From NCBI GenBank assembly GCA_937128505.1, contig CAKZMM010000157.1, positions 1-61,507 on the forward strand: 61,507 nucleotides of DNA. The letters run 5' to 3'. This document shows positions 33,971-49,036 of the stretch, in pieces. Source of the stretch: an uncultured Thermogutta sp. (GTDB taxonomy: Bacteria; Planctomycetota; Planctomycetia; Pirellulales; Thermoguttaceae). The position numbers and the translations under genes are program-made. Under the pieces are notes generated by a model. That model was not told the origin of the DNA. It was given only the letters and a program-made list of their open reading frames with translations, and did no database searches. The number at the start of each line of letters is the position of its first letter. Positions within the stretch are counted from its first letter, which is position 1.

Positions 33971-34684
33971 ATGGCACGACCGACAGCAACCAATCCCACT
34001 CAGTCGGCCCCTGCCGGCCGAGCAAATCTGACCGACACCGCTTACGAACTGATTCGGCGGCGTATCGCCGATGGAACCTTCGAGCCCGGGTCGTGCATTT
34101 CCGAGCGAATGCTTTCGGAACAATTGGGCCTGGGAATGGCTCCCATCAGAAGCGCTTTGCGGAGGTTGGCCGCCGAGGGCTTTGTGACCATCGCTTCCCG
34201 CCGCGGATGCTTTGTCGCCCATCGATCCATTCAGGACGTGGCCGATTTATTTGAGGTGCGCCTGGTGTTGGAGCGGCTAGTGGTTTCGCGGATCACAGGC
34301 CACTTGCAGGCCGACCAACTTCAAAGCCTTCAAGAGTGCCTCAAGGAGCATGAGAAACTCATTCGGCAAGGAGCCGATCCAAGTAAAACCCTGGTCCCGG
34401 ATTTTGCGTTTCATCGCAAGCTGGCCGAGTATCAGGGGAATAAGTTTTTGCGGGTGGTTCTGACCAATATTTTGGACCTGGTCTTTCCCGAAATTTTCAT
34501 TGCCCACCGAAAATGTCCGGATCGGGTTGAAAAGGCGCTGGAAGAGCACAAGCGATTGTTGGGGGCTATCGCGAACTCGGATGCGGCGGAAGCAGAACGC
34601 CTCCTGGTAAAACACCTGATGAGTTGCCGCGAGTTTGTCTTTTTCCGCAATATTTCGGGGCTGGAGAGGACGGGGCTGGCCTAA
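33971..34684 (+). CDS. GntR-family regulator, FCD (FadR-like) subfamily (237 aa)
   Basis: The N-terminal winged helix-turn-helix spans about residues 20-88 ([17 protein letters not shown], then [29 protein letters not shown]). The FCD ligand-binding domain follows, with [10 protein letters not shown] near 96 and the metal/ligand helices DFAFHRKLA and H-x-x-L-L-G-A-I. FCD regulators sense organic acids or sugar acids and usually control adjacent catabolic genes. It lies 62 bp upstream of the DUF1559 gene on the same strand and is a candidate regulator of the block that runs to 42 kb. The substrate cannot be read from the sequence. Confidence 0.93.
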
Positions 34685-34746
34685 GTGGGTGTGTTTCGTG
34701 TTTTGAACAATCCCTTTTTGTGTCTTTTTTGTTGGAGGGTTCTGGA

Positions 34747-35868
34747 ATGAGACTCGCGAAGCTTTCTCGTGGATTGAATCGGGTGGGCGGTTTTACACTA
34801 GTGGAATTGCTTGTCGTCATCGCGATTATCGGGATCCTCATTATGCTTTTATTGCCCGCGGTTCAAGCAGCTCGCGAAGCTGCGCGCCGGAGTCAATGTA
34901 CCAACAATTTGAAGCAGTTAGGGCTTGCCTTCCATAATCATCACGACTCGTACAAGCATTTTCCCTCAGGCGGATGGGGTTATACGTGGCTGGGCGATCC
35001 GGACAAAGGCTATGACGATCGCCAGCCCGGCTGCTGGCCTTTCAATGTGCTGCCTTTTATCGAGCAGGTTTCCGTTCGGGATGTGGGCAAACAAGGAGCG
35101 GCTTACCCGAACTATCCGGCGGTGACTAACGCGGCGGTTTATGAGATCGGGCTTCCGATCTTTTATTGCCCATCACGCCGGGCCGCAGAGGCGTATCCTT
35201 TGCCTTCTGGGGCAACCACAACCTTTCGTAACGGGCCGGCAAGTCCGCCGGGTTCTATAACTCGATCGATACGCACGGATTACGCTGCCAATGGCGGCAA
35301 CCGGGTGAATCCGGGTGCGAATCGTTTTATGCGCCAAACGGCTCACTTTGCTGCTGGCCCGGCTAATGACCCGACGGCGATCGCCAATTTTTTGAGAACG
35401 CCTGCTACTGCCTCCGGCCACTGCGGAAACCCCTCCACTGGTCTATGTGCCTCGGGCCACAATGGGATCGTCTATCAGGTCAGTCGGGTGCGGTTTGCCG
35501 ATATCACAGATGGCACAAGCAACACCTACATGATTGCCGAAAAGCCGGTGAATCCGGATGCCTATAAGGGGGCTATCCGCGACCATAGCGATGATGGAGC
35601 ACTGTACCGAGGCTTCGATGATGACTTGGTACGATGGACGGGCACGGATAACGAAAACTTCAACAATCCTCAGCCACTGCGAGTGACCCAGGATCGGCCC
35701 GGTGTCAATCATGATTCTACGACTTATAGCTTCGGCAGTGCCCATCCGGGGGCTTTCATGGCCTTGATGGCCGACGGCTCCGTTCGAGCCATATCGTATA
35801 CGATCGATTTGCAGACCCACCGCGTCCTGGGAGGTTGCAACGATGGCGGAGTGGCGGGGGAATTCTGA
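34747..35868 (+). CDS. DUF1559 prepilin-like protein (373 aa)
   Basis: The start is ATG at 34747, preceded by GGAGG at about 9 nt. The N-terminus has a type IV prepilin-like leader: [19 protein letters not shown], then [28 protein letters not shown]. This is the hallmark of the planctomycete DUF1559 family, present in many copies per genome. The C-terminus shows the family's H-P-G-x-x-x-x-x-x-A-D-G-S-V motif ([18 protein letters not shown]). The likely location is the cell envelope after prepilin peptidase cleavage; function is unknown. Pairing with a small lipoprotein gene (36023) and a GntR gene upstream is a common planctomycete arrangement. Confidence 0.95.
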
Positions 35869-35909: not shown

Positions 35910-36022
35910 AAAAGTCGTGTCCTGAAATTGGCAACAATATCCGTGCCATCAGATTGCCAACATCCGCGGTTTGAGAGTTAAGACGAGTTTGTCACCCGGA
36001 ATTGAATTGGAGAAAATCTGAA

Positions 36023-36661
36023 ATGTCATGGTCCAGCAGGAAGATGCAGGTGGTCGCAGCGGTGGCGCTATGCGGATGGATGCTTCTGTGCTGGGGCTGT
36101 AGTCGTGGCCCTAGCCGGGTTGAAGTGCCGCAGCTTGACGCAACCAGTGCCGCCCGCGCCGCGATGCAGCAACTGGATGCCGACAGTAATGGAACGCTAA
36201 CCGAGCCGGAGTTGGAGAAATCGCCCGGCCTGAGGCATGCTCTGCCGCGAATGGACCTGAACGCGGATAAAGCACTGACCACCGAGGAAATCGCCGGGCG
36301 TATCCAGGAGTATCTGCGCCAAAAGATCGGGGCGATTTCTTTTGTCGGAACCGTAGTCCTGGACGGCAAACCACTGGCGGGGGCGGAGGTAAACTTCGTT
36401 CCGGAAGAATTTCTCCGCTTGGCTCTTCAGCCCTGCAAAGTCACCACGGATGCAAGCGGGCAGTTCCGGCCACAGGCGCCGGGATTGGACGTTCCGGGTT
36501 TGCCGCCCGGAATTTACCGCATCGTGATTTCCAAGAAAGATGTTCAGGGAACAGAACTCGTTCCCGCGCGATACAATACGGAGACAACCCTTGGGGTAGA
36601 GGTGGCGATGGACAGCCCCGTGGTCGGTCAGGGGCTCGACCTCCAATTAAGCAGCCGGTAA
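36023..36661 (+). CDS. Lipoprotein with EF-hand-like pair and transthyretin-like domain (212 aa)
   Basis: The start at 36023 (MSWSSRKMQ) has GGAG 10 nt upstream; a TTG seven codons earlier is less likely. A hydrophobic signal ends in a lipobox (LLCWGC, lipidated Cys near residue 24). Two EF-hand-like loops follow: DADSNGTLTEPE (near 54) and MDLNADKALTTEE (near 78). The C-terminal domain (about residues 105-205) is a carboxypeptidase-regulatory/transthyretin-like beta sandwich (VVLDGKPLAGAEVNFVP, TTDASGQF, PGIYRIVI). Small lipoproteins of the second type commonly pair with DUF1559 genes in planctomycetes; adding EF-hands is less usual. It is probably anchored to a membrane and possibly calcium-binding. 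Confidence 0.87.
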   Translation: MSWSSRKMQVVAAVALCGWMLLCWGCSRGPSRVEVPQLDATSAARAAMQQLDADSNGTLTEPELEKSPGLRHALPRMDLNADKALTTEEIAGRIQEYLRQKIGAISFVGTVVLDGKPLAGAEVNFVPEEFLRLALQPCKVTTDASGQFRPQAPGLDVPGLPPGIYRIVISKKDVQGTELVPARYNTETTLGVEVAMDSPVVGQGLDLQLSSR

Positions 36662-37104
36662 TCGTGCAGTTTGGATGGAATAGCCCGCTGTTGTTTGCAA
36701 AACCCCGCAGTTATGCAGCAGGGGCATTGGGGTAATCCTTCGGTTTCACTATTACGCCGGGCAACCTGTTGAATGGCTTAGCGTCTGTTGAATCGCTGAA
36801 TGAAAAGCAAAAAAAGTGGTTCCCAAACCAGACTGAGCTGCGCTAACAAAGCGAACCTGAAAAAGGTGTGATGCCGGGCTTGGTAACATGCTGCGGGCGG
36901 AGTGCCGGTGACATTTCCCTTAGGGATCTGGATCCGTCCGCAGAGGGCGCCGGCGTGGCAATTCGGCAAGTGGGTCGACCTCCTTTGCCTGCCCGATAAA
37001 AAGGCACTCACCATATGCAGTTTTGCGGCTACCCAAGACCGTTTTCCGCTACCAACCGGTTGATTCAACAGATTTCAGCAGATACGAATCGGAGTCGGCG
37101 GAGC
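36662..37104. other. Gap with a 19-bp duplication
   Basis: 443 bp without a supported gene. A 19-bp duplication lies at 36765-36802, where both units contain ctgttgaat followed by a related ggctta/cgctga. No terminator is visible. Confidence 0.45.
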
Positions 37105-38967
37105 ATGAACCATCGGCTTTGGATTCTAGTGATTTTAGTTCTTGCGGCGATTTCCGGGGCAATGGTGGGTGAGGACATCGAAGCTATTGCAGGCGGGGGC
37201 ATTGAAACGGCGGTAAAAGGCACGACCGTTCTTCGCGTCGGTTTGGTACAAATGGCCATCGATTCTTCCGCCGACGGCAACTGTCAAAAGATGGAAGCCT
37301 TTATCCGGCAAGCGGCCGAGCAAGGTTGTCGCGTTGTCGTTTTTCCGGAATCGGCCCTTTGGTGCTTGCCCGAGGTGCCCAAGTCCAAGGTCGACGAACT
37401 TTTGGGGCGCATTCGGCAGTGTGTGGCCCAGCATCGGCTCTATTGCCTGATGAATATGCTGTATTACGAGCCCGGGGCACGCCGGGCGAGCATCCGCCTG
37501 CTTGTCCTCAACCCGAAAGGGCAAGTAATCCAGGATTATTACAAGCTGTGGTACGACGAGCGATATCCGAAGGCGCCGGGACTTTTCGAAATAGATGGAA
37601 TCCCATGCGCTGCTGCCATCTGTGCAGATCGTTGGATTCGTAGTGTAGAGGAATTGCCGGCCTTTGCCGGAGCGCAGATCCTCTTCGAATGCTCGGCGAA
37701 CTTTGCAGACGAATGGATCCCCGAGCTCGAGTGGTACTGGTACGTGCCTCGCGCGCTGCGCAATGGTGTCTGGGTAGTTTTCACCAACTCGGCACCGCGG
37801 CCACATCCGAACGGCAGCAGTGGGCATGGACACAGTGCCGTGATTTCGCCGCAAGGAAAACTCGTGGCCTCCGCCGGTGAGGAGATTGACAAGCTGGTCG
37901 TTGCGGATCTGGACCTAAGCCAGGTCACTTCGGAGCCTTTGCAGCGCCGGCAGGCCCATCCGCCGTTCCGCGATTTTTGGAGGCAAGGCGTGGAAATGCT
38001 TGCCGGTCGATCTTTTCCGATGCCTGCGAGGGAATCGGCACGCTCATCCGGGGGAAAACTCAAGATAGCAGCCGCGCAAATGGCGTGCTCCAACCAGCTG
38101 AAAGAGAACTTATCCAAGATGGCGGCAATGACTGCCGAGGCTGCCCGAAACGGGGCGCGATTGGTCGTATTTCCTGAACTTGCTTTAACAGGAACGGATG
38201 CAGACGCAATCCGCTCCGTCGGGGCCGGTGCACTGACCGAAGCGGTCGCCGATCTGCGGAAGCTGGCGGCGAAACACGGCATCTATCTCGTTTGCGGGTT
38301 GCCGTGGCTGGAGGCAGATCGCTCTTTCAATACAGCGATAGCCATCGACCCTGCCGGTTCGGTCCGCACCCATTACCGACAACTTTGGGTAAGCCGCCCC
38401 GATCTTTTCGTGCCGGGTTCGAGCTCCAAGGCGATGTGGTTCGAGGTGGAGGGAATTCCGAGCGTGATTACCATCGGTGCCGAAGACTCGCTGAACGAAC
38501 TGGCGGAGATGGCGGCGTGGCGGGGCGCACTGCTTCATCTTCATCTTGCTAATCATTTGGATACCGATCCAGCGGAGCGACTCTTGCGGCGTCAATTGTG
38601 GGTGGTGATGGCCTCTTTTCGCACGCTTACGGTAACCGTCAATGCTGCCGCCTCGAATACCGCCGCGTCGGCCCCAAGCCGCGAAGGGGTTGCCGGTTCA
38701 GGCGGGGGGAGCGTCATTTGGGATGATCTAAACCGCAGCAGCAAGAGAAGTCCTACTAGTTTCGCCCCGTATTGCGCAGTGCCTTTGGCTCAAGCAGGAA
38801 CGGAAGAAACCATCCTTTATGCAGAGGTGAATTTCCCGCGGGAAAACCCGCAATTTCGTATCCTGACCGAAAAAACCAACCCGGAAATGACCTCGTGGTA
38901 TGCCCAGGGAACTCGTGTCATCTTCACCGAATGGAGCGAGCCGCTACAAAAAACGGCGAGCTTTTAG
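37105..38967 (+). CDS. Exported tandem carbon-nitrogen hydrolase (nitrilase-fold) protein, second domain inactive (620 aa)
   Basis: The start at 37105 (MNHRLWILV) has GGAG about 10 nt upstream and gives a signal peptide or N-terminal anchor over residues 5-20. Domain 1 (about 42-300) has a complete nitrilase triad: E82 (VVFPESAL), K147 (DYYKLWYDERY) and C173 (AAICADRW). Domain 2 (about 317-585) has the same fold signatures and keeps E358 (VVFPELAL). It has R425 where the Lys should be (THYRQLW) and G458 where the Cys should be (VITIGAEDS), so it should be catalytically dead. Nitrilase-superfamily enzymes cleave nitriles, amides or carbamates. An exported tandem copy is unusual, and the substrate is unknown. 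It sits between the DUF1559/lipoprotein pair and the nucleoside-hydrolase-like fusion, all on the plus strand. Confidence 0.88.
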   Translation: MNHRLWILVILVLAAISGAMVGEDIEAIAGGGIETAVKGTTVLRVGLVQMAIDSSADGNCQKMEAFIRQAAEQGCRVVVFPESALWCLPEVPKSKVDELLGRIRQCVAQHRLYCLMNMLYYEPGARRASIRLLVLNPKGQVIQDYYKLWYDERYPKAPGLFEIDGIPCAAAICADRWIRSVEELPAFAGAQILFECSANFADEWIPELEWYWYVPRALRNGVWVVFTNSAPRPHPNGSSGHGHSAVISPQGKLVASAGEEIDKLVVADLDLSQVTSEPLQRRQAHPPFRDFWRQGVEMLAGRSFPMPARESARSSGGKLKIAAAQMACSNQLKENLSKMAAMTAEAARNGARLVVFPELALTGTDADAIRSVGAGALTEAVADLRKLAAKHGIYLVCGLPWLEADRSFNTAIAIDPAGSVRTHYRQLWVSRPDLFVPGSSSKAMWFEVEGIPSVITIGAEDSLNELAEMAAWRGALLHLHLANHLDTDPAERLLRRQLWVVMASFRTLTVTVNAAASNTAASAPSREGVAGSGGGSVIWDDLNRSSKRSPTSFAPYCAVPLAQAGTEETILYAEVNFPRENPQFRILTEKTNPEMTSWYAQGTRVIFTEWSEPLQKTASF

Positions 38968-39437
38968 CACGTACCGATGCTGCTTTTTGAACGTACATGC
39001 TCCTTTTTTCGAATGCACATGCTCTTTTTTGATTGCACCATTCAAACCGGTTACCCAATGGGGAAATAAGCAGGATAACACTTGAATTGGCGCGAAGTCC
39101 GTCGGCTTCGGTGCCTTACCGAGCCAACCTTCCGCGGAAAGAAACTCAAAAATCAATGAGCTTGGACCCATGTTGAGGGGTCAAGGTTTCTCGACAAGAG
39201 TTTAAAGTGGGTAGTTTTTTCGCGGCATTTAACGGCTCAGCATGCTGGATTTTACCCGGTGTCATGAAGCGATAAATTCAGCTGGGTTTGCTGCCGTTGC
39301 GCCCATCATGAACCGGAAATCCGTGATGAGTCGGCTAATAGAATTTGCAAGACTTAAACCCGGCAGACAACCTTCCATTGAGTAGATGGCTTGAACCGGC
39401 TTTCAATGCAATGCTACTTCGACAAGGAGATGCTCCT
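38968..39437. other. Gap upstream of the fusion gene
   Basis: 470 bp holding the tandem repeat at 38976-39037. I see nothing else. Confidence 0.45.
38976..39037. repeat. 20-22 bp tandem repeat, 3 copies
   Basis: Units at 38976-38995, 38996-39017 and 39018-39037 share atGCTcyTTTTTtGAayGca. The array starts 9 bp after the nitrilase gene's stop codon. Confidence 0.82.
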
Positions 39438-42005
39438 ATGAAGTTGACAGGATCACTCGTCCTTTCAATGTGTCTTTTTGTGGGACTTGCCGTCGGGGCG
39501 ATGGCGGGCACAGGTCCGTTCGATGGCAAGCAATTTCGCGGTCGAATTGCCTATAGTGCCGATGGCAATTTCAATGACCCCGATGATTGGGCAGCCTCAC
39601 CGATGGTGTTAGCCATCTTTCATGCCGCAGGGGTGAAAGATCGGCTGGTGCATTTTAGCTACAACTCCATCGTGCCCCGTACCGACCCCGCCTGGGAACT
39701 GATTCACGGCAACATCATCAAACAAGCCGCCGCCGTGTTTGGCTACGATCCGTCGATTTTCATCGACTGCCGGAAGGATCGCGAGCGGGCTGTCGCCGCT
39801 TTAATCCGTAGCGTGGATCAATCGTCGGAGGCAGATCCGCTTTACCTGATCGTCGCGGGGCCGATGGATATTCCGTGTTTTGCACTTCGCCAGTCCGCCC
39901 CGGAAAAGCGTCGCTTCGTGTACTGTATCTCGCACAGCGCCTGGAATGACGGTTATGCAGATTCTGAGTCGGGCAAAGGGTGCTTAACGGTCAGCAAACG
40001 GCAGGTCATTGAAACCGGGGTGAACTGGGTCCAGATCGCGGATCAAAATCCTCGTCTTCGCACCAATCGCTATTGGCAATTCGCGCGGGAAGCCGAATGG
40101 GCCCCGTTTTTCTGGCTTCGTGATTCACAGAAATCCAGTAACCAGTTTTTGTGGTATTGCCTTCAGATTTCCCATGCACCGGATGTCTCCGACGCGGGCA
40201 TGGCGTACTTCCTGGTCACCGGCGACGAGAGGGCGGATCCGGAAAAGCTGCGGCACCTTCTTGACGATGGCGTGCTACCCCCGGTCGTGGGAGAAAGAAA
40301 CACGATCCGCCTCGAGGCGGAAGCTTTCCACGTCGTAAGGGACGGCGCCGTGCTTTTCGAGCGGCGTGGCGAACTTTCTCACAACCTGGGCGTGGAATCG
40401 ATACCCGGAAAATCGAGGTTCTACCTGGCCACCCGATTCGATCAACCCTACGCGGCCGTTCGTGACCGTTACGACGTGCTGGTACGGGGTTATACGCGGG
40501 AAGCATCACCTCAGACTTGGGTGCTCGAGGTGCGCCGTTCGGAGAAGCCTCTTCGCCGGGCTTTTCAAGTAGCAGACCAAAAGTGGGCAAACCATCTGCT
40601 TTCCGGATTTGAGATTGGCATCGGGGACCAAATAGCCTTGGAAATCGCAGGCCAAGGAGGAGTCGATTTCATCCAGCTGCAACGCCGGACGGGGGAGTCC
40701 TCGCCACCGGCCACATCCCCACCACGACTCGTGGCGACCGGGCCCCTGGATAATCCCGCCGTGCCCCCAGGACAGGTGATCGTGGTGGGTTCAAACCCCG
40801 GTTACCTGAAGTACAACGGCGGTGGCCCTGTTTTCTTGTGCGGCCCCGATAATCCTGAGGAATTCCTGTATCTGGGTTCGATTAATCCCGACGGTACACG
40901 CTCCGGCGGTGGGCAGGAGCAACTGATTGCGGCGATGGCGAAAGGGCAGGTAACGGCCTTTCATTGCCAGATGTTCCGCATGCGACGCTGCAACATCAAA
41001 GACGAAGGCGACGATACGCATTGTCCGTTTGTGGACTTTGACCCCGCCAAACCGCTGAATCCTGCGATCTTGGACCAGTGGGACAAATGGCTGGAAGCGA
41101 TGGAAAAGCACGGCATTGTGGTCCACTTGGAGTTCTATAACGATGCGACCGACGTGGAAAAAATGGGCTGGACGCTCGACGCACAAGGCAATCTGCACCC
41201 CGATGAACATAAGTTCATTTCAGGGATTGTGCAGCGCTTCAAGCATCGAAAGAACATCATTTGGGGAATTGCAGAAAGCATCAACAAGCTCCCCCGGGCC
41301 AGAGTGCCCCATTTTATGAAGATCAGTCAGCTTATTGCCGAGTTGGATCCGCATCGGCCGATTGTGCACAGTTTCGTCACACCCGAAACAACGGAGCGCG
41401 ATCTGCATCCCGATAATGTCACGCCTGCCGATTATGAGGGAGATCCGCGGATCCGGTTGATCACTTGGCTACACGTTTTGTCGCGGGGAAATGACTATGG
41501 AGCGCAACGGGCCGAATTCCTGAAATATGCCTTTGGGCATCGGGAACGTTTCATTTTGATGAAAAACGAAACGGAAATGCATCCGCGAACTCAGCCCGCC
41601 AGTCGAATCTATTTATGGTGCTGTGCCTTGGCGGGATTGCACACCCTGGAGGCGCTTCACGATGTTCGCCGCGTGCCGCAGTTGCTCCCCGATCATGGCC
41701 GGTTAGCACGGTTCATGGAGCAGACGGACTTCTACCGAATGCAGCCGAAGGATGATTTGGCAGCCGGCTCCGGCAAATGGGTCTTGGCATTCGAAGGCCA
41801 GTCGTACATCGTTTACACCTACGACTACACGGGCCGGATGGGGATCAAATCGCTTCCGGTAGGGGAGTACGATTTGCTGTGGTTCGACCCGGTCAGCGGG
41901 GAGCAGGTTTCACAAACCAGCACGGTTACCACCAGCGGCGAAAAGCTTTGGGAGAAGCCCGGTAATTTCGGCCGCGAAGTTGCCTTGTACATCAAACGCC
42001 GTTAG
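39438..42005 (+). CDS. Exported fusion of nucleoside-hydrolase-like, beta-sandwich and glycosidase-like domains (855 aa)
   Basis: The start at 39438 (MKLTGSLVLS) has AAGGAG 8 nt upstream, and residues 1-23 form a signal peptide. Residues of about 35-280 resemble the nucleoside hydrolase/DUF1593 superfamily. There is an N-terminal Asp cluster (YSADGNFNDPDDWAA, D42/D47/D49/D50), then LYLIVAGPMDIPCFAL and a late aspartate (VSDAGMAYF). Residues of about 285-418 look like a CBM6/35-type beta sandwich (IRLEAEAF, VDFIQLQRR). Residues of about 450-770 resemble a cellulase/DUF4038-type TIM barrel; candidate catalytic residues are E613 (WGIAESIN) and E711 or E713 (LMKNETE). A small beta domain closes the protein. 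I infer a surface-acting hydrolase; activity on nucleosides or glycans is unproven. Confidence 0.75.
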   Translation: MKLTGSLVLSMCLFVGLAVGAMAGTGPFDGKQFRGRIAYSADGNFNDPDDWAASPMVLAIFHAAGVKDRLVHFSYNSIVPRTDPAWELIHGNIIKQAAAVFGYDPSIFIDCRKDRERAVAALIRSVDQSSEADPLYLIVAGPMDIPCFALRQSAPEKRRFVYCISHSAWNDGYADSESGKGCLTVSKRQVIETGVNWVQIADQNPRLRTNRYWQFAREAEWAPFFWLRDSQKSSNQFLWYCLQISHAPDVSDAGMAYFLVTGDERADPEKLRHLLDDGVLPPVVGERNTIRLEAEAFHVVRDGAVLFERRGELSHNLGVESIPGKSRFYLATRFDQPYAAVRDRYDVLVRGYTREASPQTWVLEVRRSEKPLRRAFQVADQKWANHLLSGFEIGIGDQIALEIAGQGGVDFIQLQRRTGESSPPATSPPRLVATGPLDNPAVPPGQVIVVGSNPGYLKYNGGGPVFLCGPDNPEEFLYLGSINPDGTRSGGGQEQLIAAMAKGQVTAFHCQMFRMRRCNIKDEGDDTHCPFVDFDPAKPLNPAILDQWDKWLEAMEKHGIVVHLEFYNDATDVEKMGWTLDAQGNLHPDEHKFISGIVQRFKHRKNIIWGIAESINKLPRARVPHFMKISQLIAELDPHRPIVHSFVTPETTERDLHPDNVTPADYEGDPRIRLITWLHVLSRGNDYGAQRAEFLKYAFGHRERFILMKNETEMHPRTQPASRIYLWCCALAGLHTLEALHDVRRVPQLLPDHGRLARFMEQTDFYRMQPKDDLAAGSGKWVLAFEGQSYIVYTYDYTGRMGIKSLPVGEYDLLWFDPVSGEQVSQTSTVTTSGEKLWEKPGNFGREVALYIKRR

Positions 42006-42187: not shown

Positions 42188-43819
42188 CTACGGTGCGTGG
42201 TCGGCTCGCGTAAGCGTCTGAGAATCCGCTTGCGTACCCATCTGAGAATTGGAAGCCGGCGGATTGCCGCTTGCTTCCGATTCCCGCTGTATCCGATAAA
42301 CTACGTAGACCTTATTGCGGTAAAGCACAGGCAGCTCAAGCGGCGGCCAACTCACCGTCACGGCGAAGTGTGCCCCGTATCGCAAGGCTACCTCCCGCAC
42401 ATGCTCCGTGCCCGATTGAGCCAAACTGGTATACCAGCGCAGCTCTCCCGTGAGATCGCGATAAGCGTGCACTTCGCACAGGGCCTGCCACCATTGCACG
42501 ATGGCCCGGGCATCCTGCGGAATATCTTTCCAGTTGACTACCTCGGGGCGTTTGGCATACCACTTGAAAGTCTGCGCCATCCGGGGCGTTAAGAAGCGAC
42601 TATCGCGGGGAATGGCCGGGGAGGTTTCAATCCATCGGCACACGTCGCGCCATGCTTCATAGTCGGCTACCCGATCCTGATCACCCCGCGGTATTCCCGG
42701 CGAAAAACGCTGCCAAATACATCCGGCCAAGTGGAAGCTTGTCAGGAAGATTGCAAGGAATACGGGTACTTTCAGCCGCCAATTCTCCTTCACCGGGGAG
42801 CCGACGGCCAGCATCGTCCCGCCAACTGCAAAGGCGACGGGAACCATCACATCCGCAAGCCGAAACCAATAGTACCGCAATACACTCGCAGCCACCGGCA
42901 TATTTATCCATTCCAAAAGGCTGAGCATCGCTCCCACGCATGCAAAACCGCAACTGGCGATGGTAAACCGACGCAGCGCCTGCCGTCTTTGCCGTTCCGG
43001 GGCAAGTTGTTCCACTAGCGCCCAGCAAATCACGAGGAGCACAAATCGGTAGAAATAATCCGGCGGAATTCGGATAAGCGATAAATGATGTCCGAGCCGG
43101 AAGAGATAAATTGTCCGTGCCCACCGAATCGTCTCCGCATCAGCTCCCCAATCCAGCGTCAAGGCCGGGATCAACCCCGGCAAAGCAAGGACGATCATGC
43201 CCACCAAAGGAAATCGCAATTTCGCGAGCAAAGGCCGCTCGCTGCCCAAGCTAACCCAGTAGCAAGCCGCGGCGATGACGGCCCAACCGCCCACCAAAAC
43301 GTGGAAGGCCGTCGCCGCTCCCAGCAGGAGCAAAGCCCTGCCCCAGTGCCCCCGAATCATCGACGCCAGAGCGAACCAAAGAAAGGCAAACGCCAAACCT
43401 TTCGCCTCCAGGCCGCCGATGACCCATTCGCCTGCCATATGGAAGCGTTCTTGGACGCAGGCGAAAATGGCCGCCGCCAGAGCGGCCGCGCCCCACCGCG
43501 CCACCGTCGCCCGGCCGAGTTGTTGCCAGCCCCAAGCCAAAAGAAGCCAAGTGAAAAGGCGTCCCACCCAGACGAAAACCTCCGGTTCTAGCCACAGCGA
43601 GAGCCACCCGATCGTGTAATAAAAGGTCCAGTGAGCATCAGCCGATTGGAGAAACGGATCGTTCGGGACAACCTCTTTATTCCAGAAATGGATCGTTTTC
43701 AGCACATAATGCGCTTCGTTGGTGTCCGGAACCGGCCACGCCCCCTCCACGAAAAAAATCGCAAAAATCAAAAGAATCTCGAGGGCTGATTGGAACGCCG
43801 AATTTCTGAAAAGTGTCAT
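42188..43819 (-). CDS. Multi-pass membrane protein with DUF6798-like C-terminus (543 aa)
   Basis: The start at 43819 (MTLFRNSAF) is decided by GGAGGG 5 nt upstream. About nine or ten hydrophobic segments lie between residues 15 and 385, like the glycosyltransferase-C type of planctomycete membrane proteins. A soluble C-terminal part contains WIETSPAIPRDSRFLTPRMA, QTFKWYAKRPEVVNWKDIPQ and a Trp-rich helix. As I recall, this is the signature of the DUF6798 domain. A conserved early D-x-N-E (PDTNEAHY) in the first loop could be an active-site acid pair, as in GT-C enzymes. Function is unknown. It is 85 bp downstream of the CNT transporter gene on the same strand. Confidence 0.8.
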   Translation of the reverse strand: MTLFRNSAFQSALEILLIFAIFFVEGAWPVPDTNEAHYVLKTIHFWNKEVVPNDPFLQSADAHWTFYYTIGWLSLWLEPEVFVWVGRLFTWLLLAWGWQQLGRATVARWGAAALAAAIFACVQERFHMAGEWVIGGLEAKGLAFAFLWFALASMIRGHWGRALLLLGAATAFHVLVGGWAVIAAACYWVSLGSERPLLAKLRFPLVGMIVLALPGLIPALTLDWGADAETIRWARTIYLFRLGHHLSLIRIPPDYFYRFVLLVICWALVEQLAPERQRRQALRRFTIASCGFACVGAMLSLLEWINMPVAASVLRYYWFRLADVMVPVAFAVGGTMLAVGSPVKENWRLKVPVFLAIFLTSFHLAGCIWQRFSPGIPRGDQDRVADYEAWRDVCRWIETSPAIPRDSRFLTPRMAQTFKWYAKRPEVVNWKDIPQDARAIVQWWQALCEVHAYRDLTGELRWYTSLAQSGTEHVREVALRYGAHFAVTVSWPPLELPVLYRNKVYVVYRIQRESEASGNPPASNSQMGTQADSQTLTRADHAP

Positions 43820-43904
43820 CCTTTCCCTCCAGGGTCTTTCCAGTTTTAGATCCGACCCTGTTCGGCCGAGCTTCTCCCGCAAAACCGCGGACCCAATAGC
43901 GTCG

Positions 43905-45122
43905 TCACTCCGGCAGGAAAATGCCCGCGATGGTCGCCGTCATATACGCCGCCAAAGTCCCCCCGATCATTGACCGCAGTCCGTAGCGCGCAAAGTCGCG
44001 ACGCCGGCTGGGTTCGAGGGCACCGATGCCGCCGATCATTATGGCAATCGACCCGAAATTGGCAAACCCACACAGGGCATAGGTCGCGATCACAAACGAT
44101 CGCGGGGAAAGCTGCTCCTTCATTTCCACCAGATCCATGTATGCGAGGAATTCATTAAGGACCGTCTTCTTTCCCAGGAGCATCCCCACTTCTAGGCAGT
44201 CTTCCCACGCTACCCCCATGACCAAAGCCAGTGGGGCACACAACCAACCGAGGATCCGCTCCAAACTGATCGGTTCTCCCCCGATAGGCGGCAGCAAGGC
44301 AAGCAGCCAATTGATCATGGCCACCAGGGCTACAAACGAGACGAGCATTGCCGCCACATTCAACGCCAGCTTCAATCCTTCCGAAGCCCCGCGGCAGGCG
44401 GCATCCAGCAGATTGGCATCTGGTCGAGGAACCTCCACGCGAACGGTTCCCTTGGTGAGCGAGACTTCGGTCTCCGGAACCATGATTTTCGCAATCACCA
44501 GGGCTGCCGGGGCAGAAAGGATCGAAGCCGCCAGCAGGTGTCCCGGCTCCGCTCCTACCTTCGCCATCATGGCGGCATAAGCAGCCATCACGCTGCCGGC
44601 AATCGTGGCAAGGCCGGCGGTCATCATGGCCATCAGTTCCGAGCGCGTCATCGACGCCAAATACGGGCGAATGACCAGCGGTGCCTCCGTCATCCCTACG
44701 AATACATTGGCGGCCGCCGCCAAAGATTCGGCTCCCGAAGTATCCATGACCCACACCATGACCCGGGCCATTAGCTTCACCAGCCACTGGAGCACTCCCA
44801 GATGGAACAAGATGGCGGTTAACGCGGCCGTAAACACGATGACTGGGAGGACCGAAAAAGCCACCGGACTGCGCTTCACATTCTCGCCAAACACGAATTC
44901 CGCGCCGGCATCCGACCATTGATTGACGAGCGTCATAAATTGCCCGGCCGCAGCATAGCTTTCACGTCCGATCGGCGTCCAAAGGAAAAAAAGCCCGAGT
45001 AAAAGCTGAAGTGCCACGCCCGAAAAGATCAGCCGCCAATTCATCCGCCATCGGTTCTCCGAAATTGCCCAAGCCAGGAGCATCATCACAAAGAGGCCAA
45101 AAAAGCTCACGATGCGTTCCAT
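43905..45122 (-). CDS. nupC: Concentrative nucleoside transporter, NupC/CNT family (405 aa)
   Basis: The start at 45122 (MERIVSFFGL) has AGGAG 8 nt upstream; the in-frame GTG at 45131 abuts that site. Family motifs are clear: GAESLAAAANVFVGMTEAPLVIRPYL, SELMAMMTAGLATIAGSVMAAYA and ALCGFANFGSIAIMIGGIG. CNT proteins import nucleosides with Na+ or H+. The length equals E. coli NupC (400 residues). It faces the nucleoside-hydrolase-like fusion gene across the DUF6798 gene, so a nucleoside scavenging role for the locus is possible. Confidence 0.95.
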   Translation of the reverse strand: MERIVSFFGLFVMMLLAWAISENRWRMNWRLIFSGVALQLLLGLFFLWTPIGRESYAAAGQFMTLVNQWSDAGAEFVFGENVKRSPVAFSVLPVIVFTAALTAILFHLGVLQWLVKLMARVMVWVMDTSGAESLAAAANVFVGMTEAPLVIRPYLASMTRSELMAMMTAGLATIAGSVMAAYAAMMAKVGAEPGHLLAASILSAPAALVIAKIMVPETEVSLTKGTVRVEVPRPDANLLDAACRGASEGLKLALNVAAMLVSFVALVAMINWLLALLPPIGGEPISLERILGWLCAPLALVMGVAWEDCLEVGMLLGKKTVLNEFLAYMDLVEMKEQLSPRSFVIATYALCGFANFGSIAIMIGGIGALEPSRRRDFARYGLRSMIGGTLAAYMTATIAGIFLPE

Positions 45123-45859
45123 AAGGAGCACTCCTCGAGAACGGTGCCATTTTTGCCGGTCTCAGAGCCGGTAAGCGAAATGCTGGTATTCACCGACTTA
45201 TATTCGCTCGAATCTTCCCGCACATCTTCTCAGGACCGCCGCCTGGTGCCGGTCCAGCGCGATCTTCCCGTGAAATTGGCCGACTGCATGTCCCCCAGCA
45301 TGCCGCGGCAATTTCCCATCATGGGCTCAAGCGTTTTCCGCTTTTCGCGTTTTTATACCCTCTATTCAATTCGAAATACCTCGATTTTATGAGTACGCCT
45401 GAGGCGGTAAGCCTTGCGTTTCCGTGCGACAAAGCATACTGTAAGACCCGGTGAGTGGCGGCGGCAATATCCGCCGAGCTCGGCCGCGATTGTCGGAGGC
45501 AAGCACCCCGCTCAGCCGGTACCCGCAGACGGCGTGCGAGGCGAGGAATAACGGTGTGCAAGACGAGCAGATAAGGCTGAAGTAGCGGATTCCGCGCGAG
45601 CTTGGGCGCCCTTTCGGCCGGGAGGCCAAAGCCACTCTTTTACCGCAGTGCTCCTAGTGGGTCTACGCGGAAGTGAACTTTCGGTAGATATCCTTGCCAC
45701 AAAATGCCCCTTGAAGCAGATGGCTTGAGAACGCCTTTTGAAACCAATGGCTTACGTATCGGCACATGGCATGGCGTAGAATTCGGAGGAATAAACGCTA
45801 AATTGTTTAAAGGTCTGTATTCTTTTCAGGGTGCACATTGTCTTTGAGGTGTAACGACG
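45123..45859. other. Gap between divergent genes
   Basis: 737 bp between the divergent CNT and MDR genes, so it should hold both promoters. The only structure I can support is a 27-bp duplication at 45706-45759. Confidence 0.5.
45706..45759. repeat. 27-bp tandem duplication
   Basis: Units 45706-45732 and 45733-45759 share gccYYTTGAARCmrATGGCTT, and diverge in their last six bases. Confidence 0.7.
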
Positions 45860-47149: not shown

Positions 47150-49036
47150 ATGCCCACGGATTTGCGCAAGCAACTTCAGGAAACCGTCCTTGTCTTCGAC
47201 GGGGCCATGGGCACGGAGATTTACCGGCGTCATGTTTTTGTGAATCGTTCCTATGATGAATTGAACCTCTCGGATCCCGATCTTATCCGCCGGATTCACC
47301 TGGATTATCTCGATGCCGGCGTCGACGTGTTGACTACGAATACCTTCGGCGCGAATCGGGTAGCACTTTCCCGATTCGGATTCTCAGAAAAGACTACCGA
47401 AATCAATCGTGCTGGGGCTCTTCTAGCGCGCGAAGTAGCGGATTCGGCCGGCCGCCCGGTGCTGGTTGCCGGCTCTGTGGGGCCTTTGCCGCGTCAGTTG
47501 CAATATGTGGACGAGATCCCTGCAATGATTCGCCAGCAGGTGGAGGCCCTTCTGGAAGGGGGAGGTCACTTCATCCTTTTCGAAACTCAGTCCAACCGGT
47601 TAGCCCTGGAGCATGCGGCCCGTGTAATGCGAGATTTTCCCGAGGTGCCCTACGTTTTTTCCGTGGCCGTGGGCGACAACGGCGAGACCCCAAACGGCGA
47701 GCCTATCGAGGCGATCGTGGCACCGTTGCCGGCGGGACTCCCCTCACCCACGGCATGGGGCCTCAATTGCGGCACCGGTCCCAGCGGCTTGCTCGGTGTT
47801 TTGGAGCGTCTTCTCCAGGTTTCGGAACTCCCGATTATTGTCCAGCCGAATGCCGGGGTTCCCAAAGAAGTGGATAATCGGCTCATTTATTTCTGCTCCC
47901 CGGAGTATTTGACCAGTTACGCCAAGCGATATGTGGCGTTGGGAGCGCGAGGGGTGGGTGGCTGCTGCGGAATCACGCCGGAGCACATCCGGGAACTGGC
48001 GGAGGCCGTCAAGCCCTTAGCGCGAGCCGCACGTTCCACAGCGGTTCTGCGTGGGGCCTTAACAAGTGTCCAACTCAGGGAGCCCGTCCCCTTAGCCGCG
48101 CGATCCGCCTTGGGGAAGCGAATCGCCGATAGGCTATGGGTCACTAGTGTAGAGCTTCTCCCTCCGCGGGGATACGACTTAAGAGCGATCGTGGAAAAAA
48201 GCCGGCATCTGTTCGCAGCGGGGGTGACGGCGGTCAATATCCCGGATGGTCCCCGGGCAAGTGCCCGCATCTCGCCGCTGGTGACAGCAGCCGAAATCCA
48301 AAGACAGGTGGGAATCGAAGTCATTCTGCACTTTTGTTGCCGGGATCGCAATTTGATCGGTATGCAAGCGGATTTGCTGGGCTGTGCTGCATTAGGAGTG
48401 CGGAATATTCTTTTTGTCACCGGTGACCCCCCCAAATTGGGCAATTATCCCCATGCGACGGGGGTCTTCGATACGGACTCGATCGGAATGGTCGCCGTTC
48501 AGCGCCGGCTGAACCAAGGGGTGGATCTGGGAGGGCAGGCGATCGAGCCGCCGACGGCGGCAGTCATCGGTGTGGGCCTTGATCCGACCGCACTCGATCG
48601 GCAAAGAGAGTTGGATCGCTTCCGCCGAAAGATGGAGGCCGGGGCCGAATTCGCGATCACGCAACCAGTGTTTGATCCCGAGGCACTTCTCCGGTTTCTC
48701 GATCAATTGGGCCAGTGCCCGATTCCCATCATCGCGGGGATTTGGCCGCTGGCAAGCCTACGAAATGCCCTGTTTTTGAAAAACGAAGTACCGGGAGTCG
48801 AGATCCCCGACAAGATCCTCCAGCGAATGGAGGCGGCACAAACCCGCGAGGAGCAATTGGCGGTCGGTGTCCAAATCGCCCGTGAATCGATCGAAGCGAT
48901 TCAGGACCTCGTCGCGGGAATCCAGGTCTCCGCCCCCCTGGGGAAAATTGAAATCGCCCTTCAAGTCCTGGAAGGATGGTTGGATCGGCCCGCGCGGTCG
49001 ACCGCCCCTCAATCGGGCTTTGTTCCTTCGAGTTAG
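47150..49036 (+). CDS. Fused homocysteine S-methyltransferase / methylenetetrahydrofolate reductase (628 aa)
   Basis: The N-terminal barrel (about 10-300) is a cobalamin-independent-type homocysteine methyltransferase domain: VFDGAMGTEIYRR, DVLTTNTFGANR and zinc ligands C207 (GLNCGTGP), C272 and C273 (GGCCGITP). The C-terminal barrel (about 325-610) is methylenetetrahydrofolate reductase-like (SVELLPPRGYD, NILFVTGDPPKLG, EFAITQPVFDPEALLRFL). The architecture equals B. subtilis YitJ and is widespread as a bifunctional enzyme. It links folate one-carbon units to methionine synthesis. In full MetH the domain would need a cobalamin partner; whether a partner exists elsewhere in the genome cannot be judged. 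GGAG lies 10 nt before the ATG. Confidence 0.93.
   Translation: MPTDLRKQLQETVLVFDGAMGTEIYRRHVFVNRSYDELNLSDPDLIRRIHLDYLDAGVDVLTTNTFGANRVALSRFGFSEKTTEINRAGALLAREVADSAGRPVLVAGSVGPLPRQLQYVDEIPAMIRQQVEALLEGGGHFILFETQSNRLALEHAARVMRDFPEVPYVFSVAVGDNGETPNGEPIEAIVAPLPAGLPSPTAWGLNCGTGPSGLLGVLERLLQVSELPIIVQPNAGVPKEVDNRLIYFCSPEYLTSYAKRYVALGARGVGGCCGITPEHIRELAEAVKPLARAARSTAVLRGALTSVQLREPVPLAARSALGKRIADRLWVTSVELLPPRGYDLRAIVEKSRHLFAAGVTAVNIPDGPRASARISPLVTAAEIQRQVGIEVILHFCCRDRNLIGMQADLLGCAALGVRNILFVTGDPPKLGNYPHATGVFDTDSIGMVAVQRRLNQGVDLGGQAIEPPTAAVIGVGLDPTALDRQRELDRFRRKMEAGAEFAITQPVFDPEALLRFLDQLGQCPIPIIAGIWPLASLRNALFLKNEVPGVEIPDKILQRMEAAQTREEQLAVGVQIARESIEAIQDLVAGIQVSAPLGKIEIALQVLEGWLDRPARSTAPQSGFVPSS

Follow-up and report, generated by a model that had tools for sequence, protein, structure and literature searches.

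The contig CAKZMM010000157.1 of an uncultured Thermogutta sp. (GenBank assembly GCA_937128505.1), whose positions 1 to 61,507 were analysed and are referred to here as the window, carries at 39438-42005 on the forward strand a gene for an 855-residue fusion protein that joins a nucleoside-hydrolase-like half to a glycosidase-like half. The open frame runs from an ATG at 39438 to a TAG stop ending at 42005, follows a ribosome-binding site (AAGGAG, 39424-39429) and has full-length homologues in three phyla. The protein comprises a putative signal peptide (residues 1-24, 39438-39509), a domain with the nucleoside hydrolase (NH) fold (residues 33-279, 39534-40274), a β-sandwich resembling carbohydrate-binding modules (CBMs) of families 35 and 6 (residues 287-421, 40296-40700), a (β/α)8 barrel resembling glycoside hydrolase (GH) families 140 and 5 (residues ~446-768, 40773-41741) and a C-terminal β-sandwich (residues ~773-855, 41754-42002). 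The N-terminus, MKLTGSLVLSMCLFVGLAVGAMA/G, looks by eye like a signal peptide, and the fusion protein appears to be exported. An earlier note on this DNA had proposed an exported fusion of NH-like and glycosidase-like halves; both folds were recovered on AlphaFold models, and the signal peptide is a by-eye reading.

For the whole protein no credible Pfam, NCBIfam or PDB sequence match was found, and none of its parts passed a curated Pfam cut-off. By profile features the protein lies outside PF01156, PF07632 and PF13204, yet it has the folds of these families.

The first half (residues 25-428) was modelled with AlphaFold from an alignment of 16 rows, with a mean predicted local distance difference test score (pLDDT) of 86.7 and a predicted template-modelling score of 0.89. 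Residues 9-255 of this predicted model (33-279 of the protein) match nucleoside hydrolases in the VIA structural comparison: 8ctm (Z of 15.0, root-mean-square deviation of 3.6 Å for 211 aligned residues), RihA (PDB entry 3g5i; 15.0, 3.5 Å, 209 residues), YeiK (3mkm; 14.6, 3.5 Å, 211 residues) and Sde_0182 (2yhg; 13.3, 3.5 Å, 206 residues). The entries 3g5i, 3mkm, 3b9x, 8qnd and 1kic all fall at Z values of 14.3-15.0. The earlier note's reading would have been refuted by a model that did not place residues 35-280 in the NH fold; residues 33-279 do fall in it, at a Z of about 15. The match comes from VIA, as no nucleoside hydrolase was among the best 50 Foldseek matches listed for the first-half model. 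Cry-toxin chains among the structural matches were set aside as sharing only a common sandwich fold.

The NH relation of the N-terminal domain is undetected by sequence profiles. Neither PF01156 nor PF07632, which we take to be the former DUF1593, matched the whole protein at E ≤ 1, and PF01156 was not among the five families matched by the 16 first-half members at E ≤ 0.5. A comparison with hhalign gave the N-terminal domain a probability of 8.2% against PF07632 members and 0.1% against PF01156 members, and a wider profile of 26 rows gave 1.0% and 0.1%; the method is insensitive here, since PF07632 and PF01156, two known NH families, reach only 4.9% and 8.2% against each other. Its global mode, which paired only the alignment ends, was discarded. 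Of the suggested likeness to nucleoside hydrolases and DUF1593 proteins, the NH fold thus stood and a PF07632 match did not.

Conservation was assessed in an N-domain alignment of 26 rows (the window, 15 close and ten remote relatives) drawn from Planctomycetota, Acidobacteriota, Bacteroidota and Proteobacteria. The cluster D42-G-N-F-N-D47-P-D49-D50 (39561-39587) and the late motif V-S-D252-A-G-M (VSDAGM, residues 250-255, 40185-40202) lie where they had been read from the sequence and persist in the remote rows. D47, D49, D50 and D252 are present in every row and D42 in 25 of the 26, with Tyr instead in locus L036; such conservation argues that the cluster is not a chance occurrence. N44, N170, W226, D249 and S251 are likewise invariant, and S165, H166 and N204 are each found in 25 rows. 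According to PMC8910321, the Ca2+ of nucleoside hydrolases is bound by two Asp residues of the DxDxxxDD fingerprint and by another some 230 residues further on, while the third fingerprint Asp belongs to a relay. From their position after strand β1, D42 and D50 are candidate Ca2+ ligands and D49 would be the relay Asp; by analogy with the NH family, D252 is a candidate third ligand.

The first half had been taken as an NH domain, an assignment that holds for the fold but overlooked a second domain. Model residues 263-397 (protein ~287-421) match the CBM35 structure 2w1w in VIA (Z of 15.1, 2.4 Å for 121 aligned residues). The middle domain has the β-sandwich fold of CBM35 and CBM6 modules in the predicted model and, unlike them, has no real Pfam match, either in the window protein or in its relatives: CBM_6 and CBM_35 each reached an E of about 0.05 in one of the 16 members, which falls short of a profile match.

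The second half (residues 429-855) was modelled with AlphaFold from 13 alignment rows at a pLDDT of 92.2. It matches the GH140 apiosidase 8t9w (VIA Z of 28.6, 4.2 Å for 367 aligned residues over model residues 18-427), BT_1012 (5msy; 27.3, 4.1 Å, 372 residues) and GH5 mannanases such as 1rh9 (24.8, 3.3 Å, 293 residues). The C-terminal sandwich lies inside the GH140 match, and two of the 13 members show a weak match to PF12904 there. This half had been described as a DUF4038/cellulase-type barrel, and a GH140/GH5-like fold agrees with that description. PF13204 (Apiosidase), presumably the former DUF4038, just missed: the isolated window barrel scored 26.0 bits (E of 8.7 × 10^-6) where 26.5 are required, and the profile left 12 of the 13 barrel members unmatched at E ≤ 0.5. 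One remote barrel relative, L083, clears the cut-off at 27.3 bits.

The barrel also has the expected carboxylate pair. E613 (41274-41276) follows model strand 179-184 and E711 (41568-41570) follows strand 278-281, which are β4 and β7 by our own count; they are the candidate acid/base and the candidate nucleophile. Both are invariant in a barrel alignment of 17 rows (the window, ten close and six remote relatives), which leaves out the damaged loci L043 and L038, one cut open reading frame from L006 and weaker matches from the window's phylum. In GH140 the catalytic pair is Asp/Glu. The window protein thus shares with BT_1012 and the other PF13204-type enzymes a barrel followed by a C-terminal sandwich and a carboxylate pair at β4 and β7, and differs from GH140 in having Glu at the position of the Asp; the identity in the structural alignment is 13%.

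The search for homologous loci was one scan of 84,980 species genomes, with three peptide patterns for each half and six in all, and it reaches close relatives only. It gave 14 loci (L032-L045), or 15 with the window. Seven loci carry intact fusions (the window and L032-L037), the six others being 42-50% identical to the window protein over nearly the full length, and two carry damaged ones, L038 with an in-frame TAA and L043 with most of the second half of the barrel gone. In the four loci L039, L040, L041 and L042 the halves are separate genes that abut, with gaps of 2, −4, 1 and −4 bases; the barrel gene comes first in L039, L040 and L042 and the N-terminal gene in L041. At L044 and L045 the contig stops before the barrel. 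Both halves are therefore present at all 13 loci, from three phyla, where the arrangement can be decided. An extra copy of the N-terminal part alone adjoins the fusion in L032. In trees of the N-terminal part (15 rows, without L045) and of the barrel (11 rows, without L038 and L043) the three split Acidobacteriota cluster together each time; the window row is long in the N-terminal tree and its placement there is unsure.

The protein is rare by whole-genome sampling. Three of 119 genomes of the window's family carry it, all in the window's genus (E ≤ 1 × 10^-12). Among 396 genomes of Acidobacteriota, the phylum of L040, three match, two with the barrel part only, and among 395 of Bacteroidota, the phylum of L033, six match, five with the N-terminal part only; the window's own phylum gives 26 matches in 392 genomes at E ≤ 0.001, mostly weak ones to the barrel. 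A viral origin or spread was considered and rejected: a single scan of viral contigs with the first-half alignment gave 77 pattern matches, and no relative is encoded at any of them. Two copies deserve separate mention. In L043 (7809-9851) about 240 barrel residues are missing, including both catalytic Glu positions, through deletion or an assembly fault. In L036 (6705-10655), from a congener, D42 is replaced by Tyr and only two CN-hydrolase fragments lie nearby, possibly a decaying system.

Upstream of the fusion gene, at 37015-38967 on the forward strand, lies a gene for an apparently exported tandem CN-hydrolase of the nitrilase superfamily (PF00795, 162.9 bits in two stretches), with a signal-like N-terminus by eye and a true start probably near 37105. 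A CN-hydrolase gene is found near the NH protein in nine of the 15 loci (the window, L032, L034, L035, L038, L039, L040, L043 and L044); two genes separate it from the N-only copy in L032 and one separates it from the fusion in L043, and in L039 the open reading frame of the barrel begins with a piece of CN-hydrolase. In the first domain the Glu-Lys-Cys triad is retained in eight of nine rows, the ninth (L038) starting past the Glu stretch with Lys and Cys kept; the second domain has lost its Cys in all nine. In a control set of 99 related genomes the CN-hydrolase occurs (E ≤ 1 × 10^-25) only in the window's genome and in that of a congener, G417, both of which carry the NH protein, whereas G1224, the third genome of the genus to carry this protein, has none at this threshold.

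The remaining genes of the block are consistent in one close relative. The window holds, in order on the forward strand, a GntR/FCD regulator (33971-34684; PF07729, 77.7 bits; PF00392, 63 bits), a DUF1559-like gene (34624-35868, by eye, with a true start probably later), a small lipoprotein-like gene (36002-36661, by eye), the CN-hydrolase and the NH protein; the congeneric locus L044 has the same order, and relatives of the regulator occur in L039, L040 and L044. On the reverse strand 1.9 kb downstream of the fusion is a Na+-dependent nucleoside symporter gene (43905-45131; PF07662, 260.9 bits), and beside it is a gene for a DUF6798 protein (42188-43882, reverse strand; 78.0 bits) that is membrane-like by eye. 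A homocysteine S-methyltransferase/methylenetetrahydrofolate reductase fusion, assigned by eye at 47150-49036 on the forward strand, is probably ordinary. Scans for promoters and terminators gave no more matches than they did on shuffled sequences.

The neighbours of the homologous loci were partly identified, from a scan of 20 proteins. Downstream of the L033 fusion, and in its orientation, lie genes for a ribokinase (TIGR02152, 368.2 bits; cut-off 299.65), a RhaT/ureide-permease-like transporter and a nucleoside hydrolase (PF01156, 77.0 bits; cut-off 34.2). An outer-membrane receptor gene precedes the pair in L039 (PF25183, 712.4 bits) and has a relative in L040. Genes for a sugar-acid-type kinase, a dehydrogenase and an aldolase occur in L032 and a similar kinase in L034; L041 has a GH38 gene and L043 a fucosidase-like gene.

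More remote relatives place each half in other company. In L096 the N-domain stands behind a GH106 rhamnosidase within one 1571-residue protein, amid genes for a sulfatase, GH88, GH43/GH3, BNR_4 and a sulfatase/GH78. L099 has a 3-keto-disaccharide hydrolase and a GH106 enzyme as neighbours and L100 a sulfatase; on plasmids, sulfatase and GH43 genes occur close to both L047 (Catenovulum) and L048 (Alteromonas), joined by GH88 in the former and by a rhamnosidase in the latter, and three further matches are on Persicobacter plasmids. Genes of about 300 residues consisting of the N-domain alone occur in L089, L090 and L046. GH140-like barrels stand behind a beta-lactamase-like serine hydrolase domain in L003 and L083 (by Pfam) and in L084 (by eye), and no such domain was found with the barrel relatives L004 and L006. 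The fusions in L096, L003 and L083 therefore mark both heads as modules able to pair with other hydrolases. As a side observation, a 717-residue protein in L047 (13615-15765, forward strand) has two NH-like stretches by eye, DLLPDADDVHAIA and DGNSPDPDD, and no Pfam match at E ≤ 0.01.

Our favoured reading, held tentatively and with slightly less than even confidence, is that the protein is a secreted two-headed hydrolase in which a Ca2+-type furanoside hydrolase and a retaining glycosidase act on one amide-bearing composite glycoside. The barrel would act as a retaining clan-A enzyme, cleaving a glycosidic bond through Glu613 and Glu711. The NH-fold domain, with Ca2+ bound by D42, D50 and D252 and with D49 assisting, would hydrolyse or at least engage a furanosyl residue of the same substrate, and the CBM35-like domain between the heads would hold that substrate. 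The neighbouring exported CN-hydrolase may take an amide off the same substrate. On this proposal the partners are kept fused or abutting because their steps succeed one another on one composite glycoside. What we propose for the catalysis of each head, its metal, the order of steps and the substrate is drawn from the model folds, conservation, linkage and co-occurrence described above. We favour a two-headed hydrolase because of the glycan setting of much of the wider N-domain family, the retained residues and the abutting genes. A composite substrate, as the earlier note had suggested, gains support from the separate abutting halves and the co-inherited exported CN-hydrolase. A bolder form, in which the NH-fold domain is the first of a class of Ca2+-dependent enzymes that hydrolyse furanosides in glycans and not in nucleosides, and makes up, with a new GH140-like barrel and the exported amidohydrolase, a three-step machine common to distant phyla for a so far unrecognised amide-bearing furanosyl glycan, seems to us rather doubtful.

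In likeness to classical nucleoside hydrolases (PF01156; RihA, YeiK and the Leishmania enzyme) the window protein shares the fold over about 210 residues, the Asp cluster after β1 and the late Asp, but it differs in being exported and fused and in having no PF01156 match. Several observations weigh against the two-headed hydrolase. The longer loop of the NH-fold domain, D42-G-N-F-N-D-P-D-D, departs from the DxDxxxDD fingerprint, and the invariant S251 takes the place of the His or Trp that precedes the final Asp in nucleoside hydrolases; NHs lacking this His also exist, according to PMC8910321. Nine queries brought up no CN-hydrolase in L033, L037, L041, L042 and L045, a result limited by contig ends in L041 and L045 and not in the other three. 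Remote relatives with only one of the halves exist, so the wider family can do without the pairing. The neighbouring genes vary by locus and so do not point to any one substrate; no polysaccharide genes lie beside L046, an N-only copy on a Catenovulum plasmid. Finally, the best-studied NH-like domain found with CBMs, that of Sde_0182 from Saccharophagus degradans, is described in PMC8910321 as inactive on nucleosides.

This last point leads to the main rival, in which the NH-fold domain is non-catalytic: it would bind furanose in a Ca2+-dependent manner and, together with the CBM35-like domain, offer the substrate to the barrel. Sde_0182 offers a precedent: according to PMC8910321 its NH-like domain follows CBMs and keeps Ca2+, and an interaction with furanose sugars is proposed for it, a role given there as still a hypothesis. 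The likeness extends to the NH fold (2yhg is among our structural matches, at a Z of 13.3), the Ca2+-type Asp residues, the position beside CBMs or sandwiches and the origin of Sde_0182 in a carbohydrate-degrading bacterium, and the replacement of the leaving-group His or Trp by S251 also fits a binding role. Seven members of PF07632, the Sde182_NH-like family, were examined; five have a TD...DPDD motif and two TDGEIDD. The window protein differs from Sde_0182 in that its NH-fold domain leads on to a glycosidase-type barrel and has no match to that family at E ≤ 1. Conservation beyond the Ca2+ ligands (N44, N170, W226, D249, H166 and N204) gives the look of a catalytic pocket, and the existence of N-domain-only genes of about 300 residues is suggestive of catalysis; neither is proof. 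We regard a purely binding domain as possible, on the unlikely side.

Nucleoside scavenging, in which the NH domain would free ribose from exogenous ribosides, the barrel would trim the sugars attached to these and the base or an amide would be the target of the CN-hydrolase, appears unlikely. The ribokinase, transporter and PF01156 hydrolase downstream in L033 speak for it, as does the Na+/nucleoside symporter gene 1.9 kb downstream in the window. That ribokinase set, however, occurs in one of the 15 loci, with the neighbours of the others partly identified; the symporter gene is read from the other strand, and the examined flanks of the 14 homologous loci contain nothing related to it; and the remote N-domain loci L096, L099, L047 and L048 sit among polysaccharide genes, with L100 beside a sulfatase.

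Apiose is an attractive candidate substrate, as it is a furanose and the barrel is GH140-like. No apiose-specific family was found among the neighbours scanned, however; the kinases of L032 and L034 score 58.7 and 69.1 bits against a threonate/tetronate kinase cut-off of 450 bits, and the papers listed on apiose catabolism showed no link to this system. That the fusion arose by chance or in assembly and has no functional meaning, as the broken copies (the barrel loss in L043, the stop in L038, and D42Y with CN-hydrolase fragments in L036) might suggest, is highly improbable: the conservation of the pair, as seven intact fusions and as abutting genes at four loci across three phyla, in practice refutes it.

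Among the matches listed, no paper on this fusion was found in the titles and abstract openings of open-licence papers, which is weak evidence of absence, and a term search of the main text of a Thermogutta paper (PMC5673643) found neither 'nitrilase' nor 'nucleoside'. NH-like domains beside CBMs already have a precedent in Sde_0182 (PMC8910321). The present analysis adds to the earlier note the CBM35-like middle domain, the two-Glu GH140-like barrel, the CN-hydrolase partner and the split-gene evidence for joint function. An NH-type domain fused to or flush with glycosidase barrels in three phyla offers a route to ask whether the NH fold can serve as a glycan furanosidase, and the linked exported CN-hydrolase provides an additional clue to the substrate.

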